Below are positions 23,656 to 48,944 of a stretch of DNA of 64,000 nt, in pieces. This DNA comes from Bordetella parapertussis (GTDB lineage: Bacteria; Pseudomonadota; Gammaproteobacteria; Burkholderiales; JACQAP01): assembly GCA_945900965.1 (NCBI GenBank), contig CAMDKM010000001.1, positions 1-64,000 of the forward strand, in the 5' to 3' direction. Made by a program: the position numbers and the translations under genes. The notes under the pieces were generated by a model. It searched no databases, was not told the DNA's origin, and worked only from the letters and a program-made list of their open reading frames with translations. Position 1 is the first letter of the stretch, and every line of letters starts with the position of its first letter.

Positions 23656-24150
23656 ATGCGACATATTCTTTCGCTACTCATGGAAAATGAGCCCGGTGCA
23701 CTGTCGCGTGTTTCCGGATTGTTCTCGGCACGCGGCTACAACATCGAATCGCTGACGGTGGCACCGACGGAAGATCCGTCTCTGTCCCGGATGACCATCG
23801 TCACCAGCGGGTCCGACGACGTGGTCGAGCAGATCACCAAGCAGCTCAATAAATTAATCGATGTGGTCAAGGTGGTGGATCTGTCCGACGGCGACCATAT
23901 TGAGCGCGAGCTGATGCTGGTCAAAGTGCGTGCCTCTGGCAAAGACCGCGAGGAGATGAAGCGCATGGCGGATATCTTCCGGGGGCGAATCCTGGACGTT
24001 ACCGACAAGGCATATACCATCGAGCTCACCGGCACCGGGAGCAAGCTAGATGCCTTCCTCGAAGCCCTTGAAAAAGGCACGATCCTGGAAACGGTCAGAA
24101 CCGGCGCATCCGGCATTGGGCGCGGCGAGCGAATATTAAAAGTCCAGTGA
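23656..24150 (+). CDS. ilvH: acetolactate synthase small (regulatory) subunit
   Basis: 164 residues, the standard length. N-terminal ACT domain (MRHILSLLMENEPGALSRVSG; ARGYNIESLTVAPTEDPSLS) binds valine for feedback inhibition, and the C-terminal half (ELMLVKVRASGKDREEMKRM) contacts IlvB. Separated from ilvB by 5 bp, so cotranslated. A tandem 7-nt repeat array begins at its stop codon. Confidence 0.95.
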   Translation: MRHILSLLMENEPGALSRVSGLFSARGYNIESLTVAPTEDPSLSRMTIVTSGSDDVVEQITKQLNKLIDVVKVVDLSDGDHIERELMLVKVRASGKDREEMKRMADIFRGRILDVTDKAYTIELTGTGSKLDAFLEALEKGTILETVRTGASGIGRGERILKVQ

Positions 24151-24293
24151 GGGGTGAGGCGTGAGGCTCAAGGGCTAAGGATCGAGGATCGAGGATCGAG
24201 GATTGTGGGTCCACACCCTTCACTCATTCACGCATTTACTCATTCACCCATTCACCCATTCACCCATTCACCCATTCACTCACTTATTCAACT
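24146..24293. repeat. compound tandem array: 9 x 7 nt (NNNGAGG-like) then 9 x 8 nt (ACCCATTC-like)
   Basis: From 24146 to 24208 the sequence divides into nine 7-nt units ending in AGG or TGG, including three exact ATCGAGG. From 24222 to 24293 it divides into nine 8-nt units, four of them exact ACCCATTC and two ACTCATTC. The first block starts on the ilvH stop codon and the second ends 26 bp before the mscS start. The same 7-then-8 design is at 48.83-48.94 kb. Confidence 0.85.
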
Positions 24294-24318: not shown

Positions 24319-25146
24319 ATGAACGAACACGTCGAAACGCTTACCCACATCAAAACCCTCGTCATCGATCTTGCAATCCGATTCGGGCCCAAGGTATTCG
24401 TGGCCGTTGCCATCTTGGTCGCCGGCCATTTCGCCGGACGCTGGGTTGGCAAGGTGCTGATGGGCGGGTTGCGAAAATTCGATCTGGAGCCGCCGGTGCG
24501 CGACCTTCTGGTGCGCATCGTGCGGATTCTGGTGCTGGGGCTATTTGCCATCATGGCGCTGCAAAATCTCGGCGTCGAATTGTTGCCCCTGATTGCGGGC
24601 CTTGGCGTGGCAGACGCGGGTATCGCTCTGGCGATGCAAGGTGTTCTGGGTAACGTCGTGGCCGGGCTGACGATTATCTTTACGCGACCGTTCCGGGTAG
24701 GCGAGTACATTTCGATCGTCGGAGTGGAGGGCAAGGTGGAGAACATTGCGCTCTTCAGCACAACATTGACACACTCCGACCTGTCTCGCGTGGTCATCCC
24801 CAATCGCAAGATCGTCGGGGAGATTCTGCACAACTACGGCAAGATCAGGCAGGTTTCGCTGATGGTCGGCGTGGGGTACGAAACTGACCTGAACAAGGCG
24901 CTGGCCGCCATCCACGAGATACTACAAAACAATCCAAAAATTCTCAGGGATCCGCTGCCCGCCATCGCGGTGAGCACGCTGGCGGACTCCTCGATCAATA
25001 TCAGTGTCAATCCATGGGTCGATGTCGCGGACTTCGGCCCGACCACCGGCGAGCTCTACAAGGCAATAGTCGAGTCGTTCCGCGCAGGCGGGATTTCAAT
25101 TCCGTTTCCGCAGCACGAGGTAAGGTTGATTGGCAATGCTGCTTGA
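24319..25146 (+). CDS. MscS-family mechanosensitive channel
   Basis: 275-residue inner-membrane channel that opens under membrane tension. Three N-terminal helices (FVAVAILVAGHFAG; VRIVRILVLGLFAIMALQNLG; the pore helix region GLGVADAGIALAMQGVLGNVVAG) precede the beta domain (FRVGEYISIVGVEGKVENI) and C-terminal domain (SSINISVNPWVDVADF). ATG 24319 starts MNEHVETLTHIK; upstream codons in the ORF track are translated repeat sequence and are excluded. Confidence 0.9.
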   Translation: MNEHVETLTHIKTLVIDLAIRFGPKVFVAVAILVAGHFAGRWVGKVLMGGLRKFDLEPPVRDLLVRIVRILVLGLFAIMALQNLGVELLPLIAGLGVADAGIALAMQGVLGNVVAGLTIIFTRPFRVGEYISIVGVEGKVENIALFSTTLTHSDLSRVVIPNRKIVGEILHNYGKIRQVSLMVGVGYETDLNKALAAIHEILQNNPKILRDPLPAIAVSTLADSSINISVNPWVDVADFGPTTGELYKAIVESFRAGGISIPFPQHEVRLIGNAA

Positions 25147-25148
25147 AG

Positions 25149-25239
25149 CGGTGAACGGTAATCGGTAATCGGTAATCGGTAATCGGTAAATGGAACTCTC
25201 TATAGACGGTCACAGTCAAATGCCGTTCACCGTTCACCG
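25149..25239. repeat. inverted 7-nt tandem arrays (CGGTAAT / CCGTTCA)
   Basis: Left arm: CGGTGAA followed by four exact CGGTAAT units and one CGGTAAA (25149-25190). Right arm: two copies of CCGTTCA ending ACCGG (25223-25239). The outermost CGGTGAACGG is exactly complementary to CCGTTCACCG on the right, so the region can fold into a long hairpin. It separates the convergent mscS and CNP1/adhesin-like genes and may act as a bidirectional terminator. Confidence 0.75.
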
Positions 25240-35212: not shown

Positions 35213-38200
35213 GTTCGATCTCCGTCTCGCCAGCCAGCAGTTCGCGCACCTTCGCGAGCAGGCTGTCCTCGGAATAAGGTTTATTCATATAGGCATTCAC
35301 GCCGGCCGCCATCGCCTGTTCCTTGTGCTTGGCGGTGCTGCGCGAGGTGATCATGATCACCGGCACCTTGGCCGAGGCCAGCGTGGCGCGCAGATGGGCG
35401 GTGAGTTCGATGCCGTTCATGCGCGGCATCTCCATATCGGCGATGACCAGATCGGGCAAGCGCCCGGCGGCGATCTGCGCGGCTTCCACGCCGTCGCGGG
35501 CGCTGCGCACCTCATAGCCGCAATCCTGAATGAATTGCGCCAGCGCGCGCCGCGCGCTCAAGGAATCATCCACCACCAGCACACACTTGCGTCCCGTCGT
35601 AACGGCGTCCAAGCCGCCGCGCCCGGCGACGGTCGTTGTGATGCTGCCCGAGCCATGAGTGTCGTCGCCCAGCAGATCGGGCAGGTCCAGCACCGGCGAG
35701 ACCTTGCCGTCGCCCAGAATGGTGGCACCGATCACCCCGCGCACTTTGGGAAAATAGGCGCCCAAGCTCTTCACCACCATGTCGCGGCTGCCCAGCACCG
35801 CGTCCACTTGTACCGCCACAGTCATTCTGGCGGTTTTGGCCAGGATCACGGGCCGGGTGCCGCGCTCTCCGCTTCGGCGATTCACCACCGTGCCCAGCGC
35901 CTCCTCGATAGTGCGCATCGGGTAGAAATTGTCGCCCAGGCGGAACACCGTTTCGCTTCCCATGCGCTGAGTGCTGCCGTCGGTCGGATGCACGATCTGC
36001 TCGATCCCGCGGCTGGCCAAGGCCAATATTTCGGCGCCGGCCCGGATCAGCAGCGCGTGGCTGGAAATCAAATTGAAGGGCAGACGGAATTCGAAGGTGC
36101 AACCAAGTCCCGCCCGGCTGCCAATTTGCAGGGTGCCACCCAACTCGGTGACGCCGGTCTGCACCGCATCCAGCCCGATGCCGCGGCCGGATACCTGGGT
36201 AGCCTGGGCGCGGGTGGAAAAATTAGGCCTCAGGATAAGTTGCTTGAGTAATTCCTCGGGGGCGTCGTCGGAAGCGGAGATAACTCCGCGTTCGATGGCA
36301 GCACGGCGGATCGAATCGAAATCCAGCCCCGCGCCATCGTCTCGGCAGCGCACTAGAATATTGTTGCCGTCGCGGGAGAATTCCAGCCAGACGTTGCCCA
36401 CCGCCTTTTTGCCCGCGGCGGTACGCACCGCCTCGGCTTCGATCCCGTGGTCAATGGCATTGCGCAACAAGTGCATCAGCGGATCGGCGATCTTGTTGAG
36501 TACATCACTGTCCATCGGCGTGTCGCCGCCGGCCAGATGCAGATCGACAACCTTCTCCACCATACGGCAGGCCTGACGGACGCTACGCTGCAAGCGCGGG
36601 AATATCGTTTTGACCTCGACCATGCGGGTGCGCATGACCAGATCCTGCGTATCACGGTTGTGGCCCTCCTGGGTGATCAGCAATTCGTCCACGCCGCTGA
36701 TGTGGCCGATCACCCCGCGCCCTAGTTCGCGCGCGTCGGTGGCCGCTTCGGCTAGACGCCGGGCGCAACTGTGCAATTCGTTGTACTGGTCCATCTCCAA
36801 GGCGTCGAACCCGGCGTCCTTGCTGCGGGTCTGACGCGAACTGAAGTCCTTGACGTCGATCATTTCTTCGAGTTCGGCGCCGAGTTGGTGCAAGAGATCG
36901 AACTGCGCCTGCATCGCACGTAGGTCGGCGAGCGCGCGCTGCGCGCCATCGCGCAATTGTCCAGTCAAAATAATGTTCTCGCCGGTGCCAGCCAGCAATT
37001 GATCGATCAGGGACGCCGCTACCCGCAGCGAGGCACCCGCGTCGGCCTCCGGCTGCCCGTCCTTGCCCGCTGCCGCCTTCGCGCCCGCCACCGGCGCCTC
37101 TTCGCCGGCTGCTTTCTCTTCTGTCCTCTGAACCCTGTCCTCAGTCCTCAGTCCTCGGTCCTCTGTTGTCAGTCCTCTGTCCTCTGTCTTCGGCAACCCT
37201 TGGGTATCAATGCGATTGGCCCAGTCCAGCACTTCCTGCAGAACGGCGCGCGCATCGTCCGGCGCCGGGCCCATACCGAGCAGGAATTCGGTCATTGCCT
37301 GCAGGCAATCCGACGCATTGATCAATGAATTCGCCAATGCCGGGGCGGGCAACATACCCTCCTTGGCCAGTGCCAGCAGAATGTCCTCGAGGTTATGGGT
37401 GAGAGAAGCCAGGCCGCGGATGCCAACAGTATTGCCCGAGCCCTTGATGGTATGAGCGATGCGCTGGGCAAGATTGATATCGTCGATATCGCCCCCGCGC
37501 GCCAGCCGCTCGATGGCGGCCGAGAAGGCTTCGCTTTGACCAGGCAGCTCCTGGAGCATGCCGTGGAGCAAGTCTTTGTTCACGTCCTCCGGAATTTCCA
37601 GTGACACGTCTTCCTGGCTTGCCGTCTGCTCGCGCGAGGTGATGCCGTCTTCGAGCATCGAGAAGTCCGGGTGGCGCAAGGATTGCGAAAGCACCCGCGC
37701 CGCAGCCTGCGGCACCGGCAGTGGCCAGCCCGTGAAAACCAGCCAATTCACCAGTCGCGCGGATCTTTCGGCGGTCAAGGGCGCGTCGAGATAATCGCGC
37801 ACGTGCACGCCGAATTCGACCAGCAACTCGGCTTGTTCCTCGGTCAGGAAATTGCCTTCGCCAGCGACCGCGCGAATATTGTTCGCGGCGTATTCGAACA
37901 CCGTCCCCAGACCCGCGAAGCCCACCGAGCCGGCCGCCCCCCCGAAGCGCGCAAGGATCTCGATGCACGCTTCGCGCGCCTCGGCCACAATTTCCGCATC
38001 CATGCCGTCACTTCGCGACAGTCCGCTGAAGGCGGCGATGGTGGCATGGATTTCCGGCAGTTCGGCTTGCAGTACTTCGATGATCTGCATTGCACCGGTG
38101 GACAATACCGGACTGGCCATTTCGTCCTCGACCAGCAGATCGTCGGCAGCGATGGGCGCCGAGTCCAGATCGTCCAGAGAAAATTCATCCGGCAGTTCCA

Positions 38201-39758
38201 ATTCGCCAAGTGCAGTGGCAGGTTCTTCGGCCATCAGCAAGTCATTCATTGCAGGCGCGGCGTCCACGGGCTCATTCCCGCCGGACCCTATGCCCACCGC
38301 ATGGGCGACTTTATTGACCAATCCCGAAAGCCCATTCAGAAAGCCGCCGGAATTTCCCTCGACCACCTTGTCAGGCATGAACAATTCATCCGGGTTGGCC
38401 GCTAGCGATGCGCTCGGCTCCTGGGCGACCAGGTCATCCAGCCTCATCGACTCCGCACTCTCGGGCACTGGCTCGTCGAAGAGGCTGTCATTCGGCACCG
38501 GCAATGCCATATCGTCAAATGCCAGCTCATCGGCCTTGCCCGGGACTTCCGCCACGCTAGGCTCGGGCATCGCGTCGAATGAAAACTCCGGCACCGCCGC
38601 CGAAGACGGTGCCTCGGCCTGAACCGGCTCGGGGCCATCGAATAAATCGATGTTGTCCAGAGATACAACAGCATCCGCTGGCGAAGACGGCGAATCATTT
38701 GCGAAAAGATCGAGATCAGATGCCTTCACCGGCACATCCAGAGCCAAATCGTCCACCGCCTGCGCCAGATCGGGCAGCGCGACTTCCACGCTGGTGCGTG
38801 CCAAGTCTTGCCATGGCGCATCCGCAACCACCTCTGGCGCCGCCGTTACGGAACGAGCGACGTGCGATTCCAAGGAGGCCGTTTCGGGTATTGGTACGGA
38901 TGCTCTGTCTTCTGTCCTCTGTCCTCTGTCCTCTGTCCTCTGAACCCTCTCCTCTGTCCTCTGTCCTCTGTCCTCTGGGCGCGTCGAACTGGTGGACTGC
39001 CACGCCAGCGCCGGAATTTCCGGCACAGGCAACGGTGCCGTGGTGTCATGCGATATGTCTTGAGTGGAACGGCCGCCTGCCGAAAAATTCGGCAGCACTT
39101 GCGGCGCAACAAGATGGTCGGTTTCGGTCGTGTCGGCGGCAAACGATTCGACTGTCAGTGGGGACGCGCGATCGTCGAAATTGTTAAACGAAGTATCCCC
39201 GCCGGCCCGCGCCAGTTCGACAAATTGTCTTGCCGACATCAAAATTTCCATGGTATCGGCATGCATCAGTTCGCGCGGCACAATGCGCGGCGTGCGCGCT
39301 GGCGCCAGGTGCCGGACATCGGACCGCAATGCCGCATCGATTTCATCGAGATCGCTGTCCAGGAATGGCAAAGCATGCAGGGCGCTAATCAGCGCCTCGG
39401 TTGCGTCGAATTCGCGCCCCACACACGCCGCCATCAACTCCGGCAGAGGCGCCAGCAAATCGCGTAATTCCTCGTTCACGCCTTCTCCGCCGGATCGCAC
39501 CAGGGACGCAATCCGCCGCCACGCCCCAAGCACCGCTCCGCCCAAACCCTCGCCTCCCGAGGAATGCAGGCCGGCAAACGAGCGTTCCAACAAGCGCCAC
39601 GCCTGGCTCACGCCATTCAGGCCTTCGACCTTCGCGGCTATGGCCAGTTGCCCGGCAAGCGTCTGAAATTCCCGGGCTCGTTCCCTGCCACCGACGTCGA
39701 AATCGGCATCCGACACCAGTGCGCGCGAGAAACCTTCCAGTGCATGAAGAAATGACAT
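35187..39758 (-). CDS. chpA: ChpA/PilL-like hybrid chemosensory histidine kinase
   Basis: 1523 residues. N-terminal part of degenerate Hpt-like helical bundles and acidic linkers; a clear Hpt site (AHTIKGSGNTVGIRGLASL) near residue 766; CheA-type ATPase with N-box HLLRNAIDHGIE near 1100 and GRGIGLDAV near 1190; CheW-like domain to about 1355; C-terminal receiver (VLVVDDSLSARRAL; DLVIADMEMPRMNG) about 1392-1515. It controls type IV pilus twitching through PilG/PilH. ATG 39758 is used because the upstream codons (ILDSRLRGNDR) translate a REP element. Two linkers are encoded by 7-nt tandem repeats. Confidence 0.9.
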   Translation of the reverse strand: MSFLHALEGFSRALVSDADFDVGGRERAREFQTLAGQLAIAAKVEGLNGVSQAWRLLERSFAGLHSSGGEGLGGAVLGAWRRIASLVRSGGEGVNEELRDLLAPLPELMAACVGREFDATEALISALHALPFLDSDLDEIDAALRSDVRHLAPARTPRIVPRELMHADTMEILMSARQFVELARAGGDTSFNNFDDRASPLTVESFAADTTETDHLVAPQVLPNFSAGGRSTQDISHDTTAPLPVPEIPALAWQSTSSTRPEDRGQRTEERVQRTEDRGQRTEDRASVPIPETASLESHVARSVTAAPEVVADAPWQDLARTSVEVALPDLAQAVDDLALDVPVKASDLDLFANDSPSSPADAVVSLDNIDLFDGPEPVQAEAPSSAAVPEFSFDAMPEPSVAEVPGKADELAFDDMALPVPNDSLFDEPVPESAESMRLDDLVAQEPSASLAANPDELFMPDKVVEGNSGGFLNGLSGLVNKVAHAVGIGSGGNEPVDAAPAMNDLLMAEEPATALGELELPDEFSLDDLDSAPIAADDLLVEDEMASPVLSTGAMQIIEVLQAELPEIHATIAAFSGLSRSDGMDAEIVAEAREACIEILARFGGAAGSVGFAGLGTVFEYAANNIRAVAGEGNFLTEEQAELLVEFGVHVRDYLDAPLTAERSARLVNWLVFTGWPLPVPQAAARVLSQSLRHPDFSMLEDGITSREQTASQEDVSLEIPEDVNKDLLHGMLQELPGQSEAFSAAIERLARGGDIDDINLAQRIAHTIKGSGNTVGIRGLASLTHNLEDILLALAKEGMLPAPALANSLINASDCLQAMTEFLLGMGPAPDDARAVLQEVLDWANRIDTQGLPKTEDRGLTTEDRGLRTEDRVQRTEEKAAGEEAPVAGAKAAAGKDGQPEADAGASLRVAASLIDQLLAGTGENIILTGQLRDGAQRALADLRAMQAQFDLLHQLGAELEEMIDVKDFSSRQTRSKDAGFDALEMDQYNELHSCARRLAEAATDARELGRGVIGHISGVDELLITQEGHNRDTQDLVMRTRMVEVKTIFPRLQRSVRQACRMVEKVVDLHLAGGDTPMDSDVLNKIADPLMHLLRNAIDHGIEAEAVRTAAGKKAVGNVWLEFSRDGNNILVRCRDDGAGLDFDSIRRAAIERGVISASDDAPEELLKQLILRPNFSTRAQATQVSGRGIGLDAVQTGVTELGGTLQIGSRAGLGCTFEFRLPFNLISSHALLIRAGAEILALASRGIEQIVHPTDGSTQRMGSETVFRLGDNFYPMRTIEEALGTVVNRRSGERGTRPVILAKTARMTVAVQVDAVLGSRDMVVKSLGAYFPKVRGVIGATILGDGKVSPVLDLPDLLGDDTHGSGSITTTVAGRGGLDAVTTGRKCVLVVDDSLSARRALAQFIQDCGYEVRSARDGVEAAQIAAGRLPDLVIADMEMPRMNGIELTAHLRATLASAKVPVIMITSRSTAKHKEQAMAAGVNAYMNKPYSEDSLLAKVRELLAGETEIEHARTGTYA
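37121..37190. repeat. 7-nt tandem array inside chpA (10 units)
   Basis: On the plus strand ten consecutive 7-mers: CTGTCCT, CTGAACC, CTGTCCT, CAGTCCT, CAGTCCT, CGGTCCT, CTGTTGT, CAGTCCT, CTGTCCT, CTGTCTT. On the coding strand this gives a degenerate TEDRGxR heptapeptide in the linker between the Hpt and the CheA core (about residues 856-879). 70 nt is not a multiple of three, so unit gain or loss shifts the frame. Confidence 0.9.
38905..38974. repeat. 7-nt tandem array inside chpA (10 units), second tract
   Basis: CTGTCTT, four CTGTCCT, CTGAACC, CTCTCCT and three CTGTCCT units, exactly 70 bp. It encodes TEDRGQR-type repeats near residues 261-284 of ChpA. Same consensus as the tract at 37.12 kb, including a CTGAACC variant unit. 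Confidence 0.9.
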
Positions 39759-48832: not shown

Positions 48833-48944
48833 GGGGCTGGGGGCTAGGGAAATTCTGAAAAACCCCTCACCCCTCACCCCTTACTCCTCACCCCTCACTC
48901 ATTCATTCACTCATTCACTCATTCACTCATTCACTCATTCACGC
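48831..48944. repeat. compound tandem array: inverted 7-nt blocks then 8-nt ATTCACTC array
   Basis: Starting at the SDR stop codon: GAGGGGC, TGGGGGC, TAGGGA, then five CCCCTCA-like 7-mers (48863-48897), which are complementary in sense to the first block, then about five 8-nt ATTCACTC units ending ATTCACGC (48905-48944). Same layout as the array after ilvH, including the ACTCATTC/ATTCACTC 8-mer. It ends 27 bp before the FAH start. Confidence 0.85.

Follow-up and report, generated by a model that had tools for sequence, protein, structure and literature searches.

A compound array of 7- and 8-nucleotide repeats behind ilvH belongs to a genome-wide, lineage-variable class of repeat elements

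Results

The array between ilvH and mscS

The window analyzed in this study is a 64,000-nucleotide stretch of a draft betaproteobacterial genome. It carries ilvH, which encodes the small subunit of acetolactate synthase, followed by a tandem array and a gene for an mscS-type mechanosensitive channel (Table 1). The original prediction described nine 7-mers beginning at the ilvH stop codon and then a run of 8-mers. Both the sequence and Tandem Repeats Finder (TRF) confirmed this arrangement, with eight clear 8-mers and one degenerate 8-mer. In one register, the left arm reads TGAGGGG, TGAGGCG, TGAGGCT, CAAGGGC, TAAGGAT, CGAGGAT (three times), and TGTGGGT (24148-24210), and the stop codon TGA (24148-24150) is the start of the first 7-mer. 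The spacer CCACACCC lies between the 7-mers and the 8-mers. The 8-mer run (24219-24290) consists of TTCACTCA, TTCACGCA, TTTACTCA, four copies of TTCACCCA, TTCACTCA, and CTTATTCA, and its unit is ACCCATTC/TTCACYCA. TRF placed period 7 in two segments (24147-24167 and 24178-24203) and period 8 in one (24214-24279). The start of mscS was set at 24319, where the alignment with congeners begins; its reading frame is open further back into the array.

As shown in Table 1, the period changes on a small palindrome. The compound array is therefore a quasi-palindrome whose two arms differ in period, with a GAGG-type arm on the plus strand facing a TGAATGGG-type arm on the minus strand. A switch from 7 to 8 within one element had been proposed; at ilvH it proved to be the junction of facing arms, whereas a same-strand switch was found at 48862-48942. 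The exact 15-mer TTCACCCATTCACCC of the array matched the genome 16 times, compared with 0 matches for the backwards-read control, and array counts in dinucleotide shuffles were near zero. These results indicate that the array after ilvH is not due to chance.

Table 1. Features at the ilvH array and related elements (positions in the window)
Feature	Position	Strand	Basis and remarks
ilvH, acetolactate synthase small subunit	23656..24150	+	Pfam ALS_ss_C, ACT_AHAS_ss; TGA stop forms the first three array bases
Left G-rich arm, nine 7-mers, consensus NGAGGNN	24148..24210	+	Sequence, TRF
Apex palindrome TGTGG-GT-CCACA, site of period change	24204..24215		Palindrome scan
C-rich right arm, 8-mers TTCACYCA (eight clear, one degenerate)	24219..24290	- (G-rich strand, TGRGTGAA)	Sequence, TRF
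37-base identity with the array ahead of ilvC (contig C18, 18.4 kb)	24243..24279		Longest stretch common to both junctions
mscS-type mechanosensitive channel	24319..25146	+	Pfam MS_channel; after pip, not ilvH, in congeners
Second element 3' of mscS, between convergent genes: CGGTAAT x5 (25156-25189) facing CCGTTCA x2.4 (25223-25239)	25149..25239		TRF, sequence
Second compound array of the window: 7-mers CACCCCT (48862-48898) straight into 8-mers CACTCATT (48894-48942), same strand	48862..48942	-	TRF

A genome-wide class of 7-, 8- and 9-mer arrays

Of the draft genome (3.88 Mb, 103 contigs), 1.56 Mb was scanned in stretches. Gene calling with a simple codon-pair model gave 1325 genes and 84% coding sequence. 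The scan found 103 arrays of period 7, 27 of period 8, and 57 of period 9. Periods 4-6 and 10-13 gave 0 to 6 arrays each, with almost none at 6, 10, or 11; periods 14 and 15 were also enriched and are multiples or sums of 7, 8, and 9. Most arrays were intergenic (85/103, 26/27, and 54/57 for periods 7, 8, and 9), and their density in intergenic DNA was about 24 times that in genes for period 7 and more than 90 times for periods 8 and 9. Dinucleotide shuffling of all the intergenic DNA yielded 0 to 0.4 arrays per period, compared with the 85 (period 7) and 26 (period 8) observed. An Rfam search at the ilvH array gave no family match up to E 5, and a literature search by unit sequence strings gave no relevant match. 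The ilvH array is thus a member of a genome-wide, lineage-variable class of elements with 7-, 8-, or 9-nt units, in line with the likeness to cyanobacterial short tandem repeats that had been pointed out for it.

Period-7 units were numerous and included GAGGGGC, GAGGATT/C, GGTGAAC, GGGTGAA, and ACAGAGG. The period-8 units were TGAATGAG/TGAATGGG and AAAGACGC, and those of period 9 were of the types CGCGGAGGA, CACAGAGAA, and CACGGAGAA. The original prediction depended on whether compound arrays beyond chance occur elsewhere in the genome. Thirteen neighboring 7/8 pairs were found in the 1.56 Mb, 10 facing and 3 on the same strand, so the prediction stood on this point. The 7-mer partner of the 8-mer arm was GAGGATY in 7/10 (17% expected, P 0.0004).

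Several arrays had features of their own. In the window, 7-mer arrays at 37120-37188 and 38903-38980 lie in a 1542-codon chemotaxis-type kinase frame on the minus strand, where they encode RTEDRGQ-like heptapeptides in interdomain linkers. Similar in-frame arrays occur in other genes, and a facing 7-mer pair lies in frame within a 911-codon frame (C3:44012-44101, given as contig:positions). Five 7-mer elements (C5:129-146, C6:18645-18662, C6:62746-62762, C7:86845-86862, and C11:59629-59646) have a common inner GC palindrome, TGGAGCGCCGC..GCGGCGC, followed between both arms by a T-rich stretch, like a terminator inside the element. Facing 9-mer pairs (e.g., C2:45259-45403, C6:29652-29795, and C12:25456-25601) often enclose a loop of 86-89 bases of unrelated sequence, and terminator-like T-runs follow the C-rich arm in 24/54.

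Position and strand relative to genes

Where neighboring arrays of opposite type lay within 250 bases of each other, the G-rich one came first in 34 cases and the C-rich one in 2. The congener G002 had the G-rich array first in 9 facing neighbors and the C-rich one in 0. Divergent intergenic regions, which make up 21% of intergenic bases, held only 5/116 array clusters. Between co-directional genes, arrays with the G-rich strand coding were nearer the stop than the start in 54/57, and those with the C-rich strand coding were nearer the start in 53/66. The suggestion that such arrays lie just after stop codons was therefore borne out as a tendency, but most arrays near stops do not overlap the stop codon itself. 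The same G-then-C order could result if stops and starts each had a strand preference of their own, so this order by itself does not prove a hairpin.

The same loci in congeneric genomes

The comparison set comprised three genomes of the same genus (G001-G003), whose ilvH orthologues are 92-95% identical to that of the window. In all three, and in the other Betaproteobacteria inspected, ilvH is followed by ilvC. The congener ilvH-ilvC gap is a short hairpin in which a C-rich arm faces G-rich near-7-mers that lie at the ilvH stop or directly behind it, and these hairpins fold at z -7.4, -5.0, and -2.2. The first 19 bases of the left arm in the window match the left arm of the G001 hairpin. The genes pip and mscS are adjacent in the three congeners (L058, L059, and L061). 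Their gap in G001 and G002 is a hairpin beginning at the stop codon (z -5.1 each), the units being of the GGACTGA type in one genome and of the CTAGGCG type in the other; no clear hairpin was found in the G003 pip-mscS region. Short strong hairpins were thus present at 5/6 congener copies of the two orthologous loci.

We then compared arms between species. At pip-mscS both arms had changed together: pairing energies were -41.1/-36.2 kcal/mol within species and -20.5/-22.3 kcal/mol for crossed arms. The same held for C6:62706 (-60.1/-54.9 versus -48.0/-44.0 kcal/mol), where the arm units are GGGGCGA/TCGCCCC in one species and GGGGCTA/TAGCCCC in the other. At the other 3/5 loci compared, the advantage of within-species over crossed arms was absent or partial. 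Of 13 orthologous intergenic regions in which at least one of the two genomes has an array, 3 have one in both, and several 9-mer facing pairs were absent or shortened in G002 at orthologous places. A 20-base 8-mer pattern had 64 matches in the genome of the window and 0 in the three congeners, and it matched 2/299 other Burkholderiales genomes. GAGGATY x4 was found 39 times in this genome and 0 times in the congeners. The 9-mer family was spread more widely (11/143 genomes of the class). The repeat units of the window, the 8-mer above all, are private to the species.

Exchange of gene partners

In the genome of the window, ilvC is on another contig (C18), behind pip. The gene orders are ilvH-array-mscS and pip-array-ilvC here, compared with ilvH-ilvC and pip-mscS in the congeners; therefore, the latter two adjacencies became ilvH-mscS and pip-ilvC. 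The ilvH-mscS adjacency is the derived gene order. Both new junctions are arrays, and their common stretch is 37 identical bases of 8-mers (24243-24279), most likely the region of exchange. Gene order shows a reciprocal exchange with both breakpoints within arrays. The simplest account for a single circular chromosome is an inversion between arrays that face each other, and recombination between the two arrays may have caused the exchange. A caveat is that a short-read assembly of 103 contigs could be chimeric at a 37-base repeat and mimic an exchange, but each junction is internal to a long contig (251 and 63 kb). Arrays were not enriched at synteny breaks with G002 (12/64 conserved versus 11/72 broken regions), and the ilvH/ilvC exchange is therefore a single case. 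We dropped TTCACGCATTTAC, conserved before G002 ilvC and in the window array, as evidence, since it could be a chance match within the 8-mer family.

Pairing between arms

Hairpin arms would be expected to complement the partner at their own locus better than partners from other loci. Arm matching was locus-specific for 9-mers (z -7.6) and 8-mers (z -4.5), with no such effect at the outer flank. For 7-mers as a group, it was not locus-specific (z -0.6): complementarity to the inner (downstream) flank, at -36 kcal/mol compared with -27 kcal/mol for the outer flank, was strong but generic. An identical unit in both arms was found in 4/11 facing 7/7 pairs (0.8 expected, P 0.007). Apices such as AGGGT-TAG-ACCCT and AGGGT-TTAC-ACCCT were present at some, not all, of the other facing pairs. 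The ilvH-mscS array folded no better than its shuffles (z -0.70), nor did the sister array before ilvC (z -1.10). These results support pairing of the arms in the class, yet the arms have drifted apart in many long 7-mer arrays.

Discussion

Two precedents are known: inverted heptamer pairs after stops in Xanthomonas, and tandem 7- to 9-mers arranged in pairs in Geobacter. The GGGNATC heptamers of Xanthomonas and Nostoc are a single unit family with one period and preferentially occur in sets of four units (Rehm et al. 2015, PMC4692102), and each Xanthomonas genome has 70-75 convergent inverted heptamer pairs (PMC4692102). The arrays described here resemble them in their tandem, mainly intergenic 7-nt units, in the G-rich coding strand near stops, including stop overlap, and the C-rich one near starts, and in their rarity between divergent ORFs. 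They differ in their many unit families, 7/8 mixed arms, 9-mers, species-private units, and mostly absent quadruplex potential: only ATTGGGG/ATCGGGG (6/103) fit the GGGNATC/GGGGAYT unit, the main units being GAGGGGC, GAGGATY, GGTGAAC, and GGGTGAA, and the quadruplex G-tracts are generally lacking. In Geobacter metallireducens, the passages of PMC2700814 on 'global regulator binding sites' describe tandem 7-, 8-, and 8/9-mers paired on opposite strands at variable distance. The 9-mer CTCCGTGTT of the present genome is similar to their class 2, TCTCCGTS[Y]; the Geobacter sites differ in being read as IHF/HU protein binding sites in fixed classes, and those passages describe no mixed-period pair. 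TAACTGA of Beggiatoaceae is likewise an intergenic 7-nt direct repeat with many sets per genome, but it is one unit only, lying just before start codons, with 169 direct sets and one indirect repeat (PMC4679880). The cyanobacterial STRR heptamers of Calothrix, as far as they are cited in PMC4692102, are also short 7-nt tandem units with several per genome. Short tandem 7-nt units at many intergenic places were found in this study as well. We know of no 8- or 9-nt facing arms among STRR.

We lean towards the interpretation that the ilvH array is a quasi-palindromic intercistronic element with two facing arms, each with its own units, which would have arisen by slippage and template switching, may act as an mRNA hairpin, and may take part in recombination between arrays. 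A G-rich arm would stand behind the stop of the upstream gene and a C-rich arm before the downstream gene, here with 7- and 8-nt units. Short hairpins in 3' intergenic DNA may come first, and their arms may then be lengthened and replaced through replication slippage and template switching. Such a process would change unit sequence and period fast and keep the orientation of the arms. Template switching converts imperfect to perfect palindromes, according to work cited in PMC4060949. REP/BIME sequences of enterobacteria are transcribed intercistronic inverted repeats that follow stops and are absent from divergent regions. By analogy, the most likely function would be that of a putative intercistronic mRNA hairpin: the transcribed element in its hairpin state could shield the upstream mRNA end or insulate neighboring cistrons. 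The comparison concerns how the elements may work, since the REP sequence is conserved, whereas here the sequence is variable and the arms are iterated. Long arrays would largely be a by-product.

The serious rival is that the arrays are neutral repeats without function. Slippage would generate them wherever they damage neither genes nor promoters, in units whose length exceeds what mismatch repair can handle. The arm order would then reflect strand constraints only: G-rich sequence would be tolerated behind stops, but not immediately ahead of starts, where it would resemble ribosome-binding sites. The rapid turnover (3/13 shared regions), the species-private units, the arrays within protein linkers, and the long arrays of this genome that fold no better than shuffles are consistent with such neutrality. 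Mismatch repair is also efficient only on 1-3 bp loops and poor on loops of more than 3 bases, in the passages on loop repair in PMC4060949. The strict limit to periods 7, 8, and 9 argues against neutrality, as do the locus-matched 8- and 9-mer arms, the two loci at which both arms changed together, and the strong congener hairpins, and we consider neutrality somewhat unlikely. An extended form of the hairpin interpretation, which we regard as slightly less probable still, would hold that intercistronic hairpins occur throughout the lineage and that both arms are rewritten together, time and again, by one 7-, 8-, or 9-nt unit per step. Structure and place would persist while the vocabulary becomes species-specific, a repair or replication process favoring three lengths would drive the change, and the arrays would be sites of rearrangement.

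The remaining alternatives appear far less probable. At least four G-tracts on the G-rich strand could fold into a quadruplex that affects transcription or translation, as proposed for GGGNATC of Xanthomonas and Nostoc, whose arrays occupy the same positions (PMC4692102). Although 33/103 period-7 arrays contain (G3+N1-7)x4, the motif is missing from two thirds of the 7-mer, 24/27 of the 8-mer, and 57/57 of the 9-mer arrays, leaving 36/187 overall; the GAGGATC array of the window lacks it, though its 8-mer arm has it. A common quadruplex cause is very improbable, and we rejected it because most arrays have no G3 tracts. Intrinsic terminators with iterated stems would explain the T-runs within 40 bases after the C-rich arm of 24/54 9-mer arrays, compared with 8% of random intergenic 40-mers. 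However, such runs followed only 4/85 7-mer and 5/26 8-mer arrays, and the congener copies sit between ilvH and ilvC, normally one operon. Terminators as the identity of the class are hence highly unlikely and were rejected, T-runs being marked only for 9-mers. It is equally hard to credit a REP/RAYT- or MITE-type mobile element whose terminal repeats would be the arms, even though the arms are inverted, intergenic, and present or absent between species, and Y1 transposases exist (7 matches in this genome). The arm units differ among elements of one genome, no conserved REP palindrome beside a Y1 transposase was found among these arrays, and no 7-, 8-, or 9-mer arrays occurred in the loci around 12 of the Y1 genes, which led us to reject REP/RAYT mobility. 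A MITE was rejected because the loops of 9-mer pairs are unrelated to each other.

Bacteria have for years been known to carry an excess of 7-nt repeats, to our knowledge with no explanation offered. The genus offers a natural experiment, with different units at identical places in close relatives and periods of only 7, 8, and 9, and it allows arms changing together to be tested against arms drifting. New in this study are the mixed 7/8-nt arms, the many private unit families per genome, the replacement of both arms in place between congeners, and the rearrangement at two arrays. The last is a worked case in which a reciprocal rearrangement split the conserved ilvBHC order and has one such array at each of its two junctions.

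At another locus of this genome (L278; C31, 34.1 kb), a Y1 (RAYT-type) transposase gene lies between inverted GGGGTCAGGCCTTGTTTTTTGC repeats. This inverted repeat is probably a separate REP with no relation to the 7-mers.
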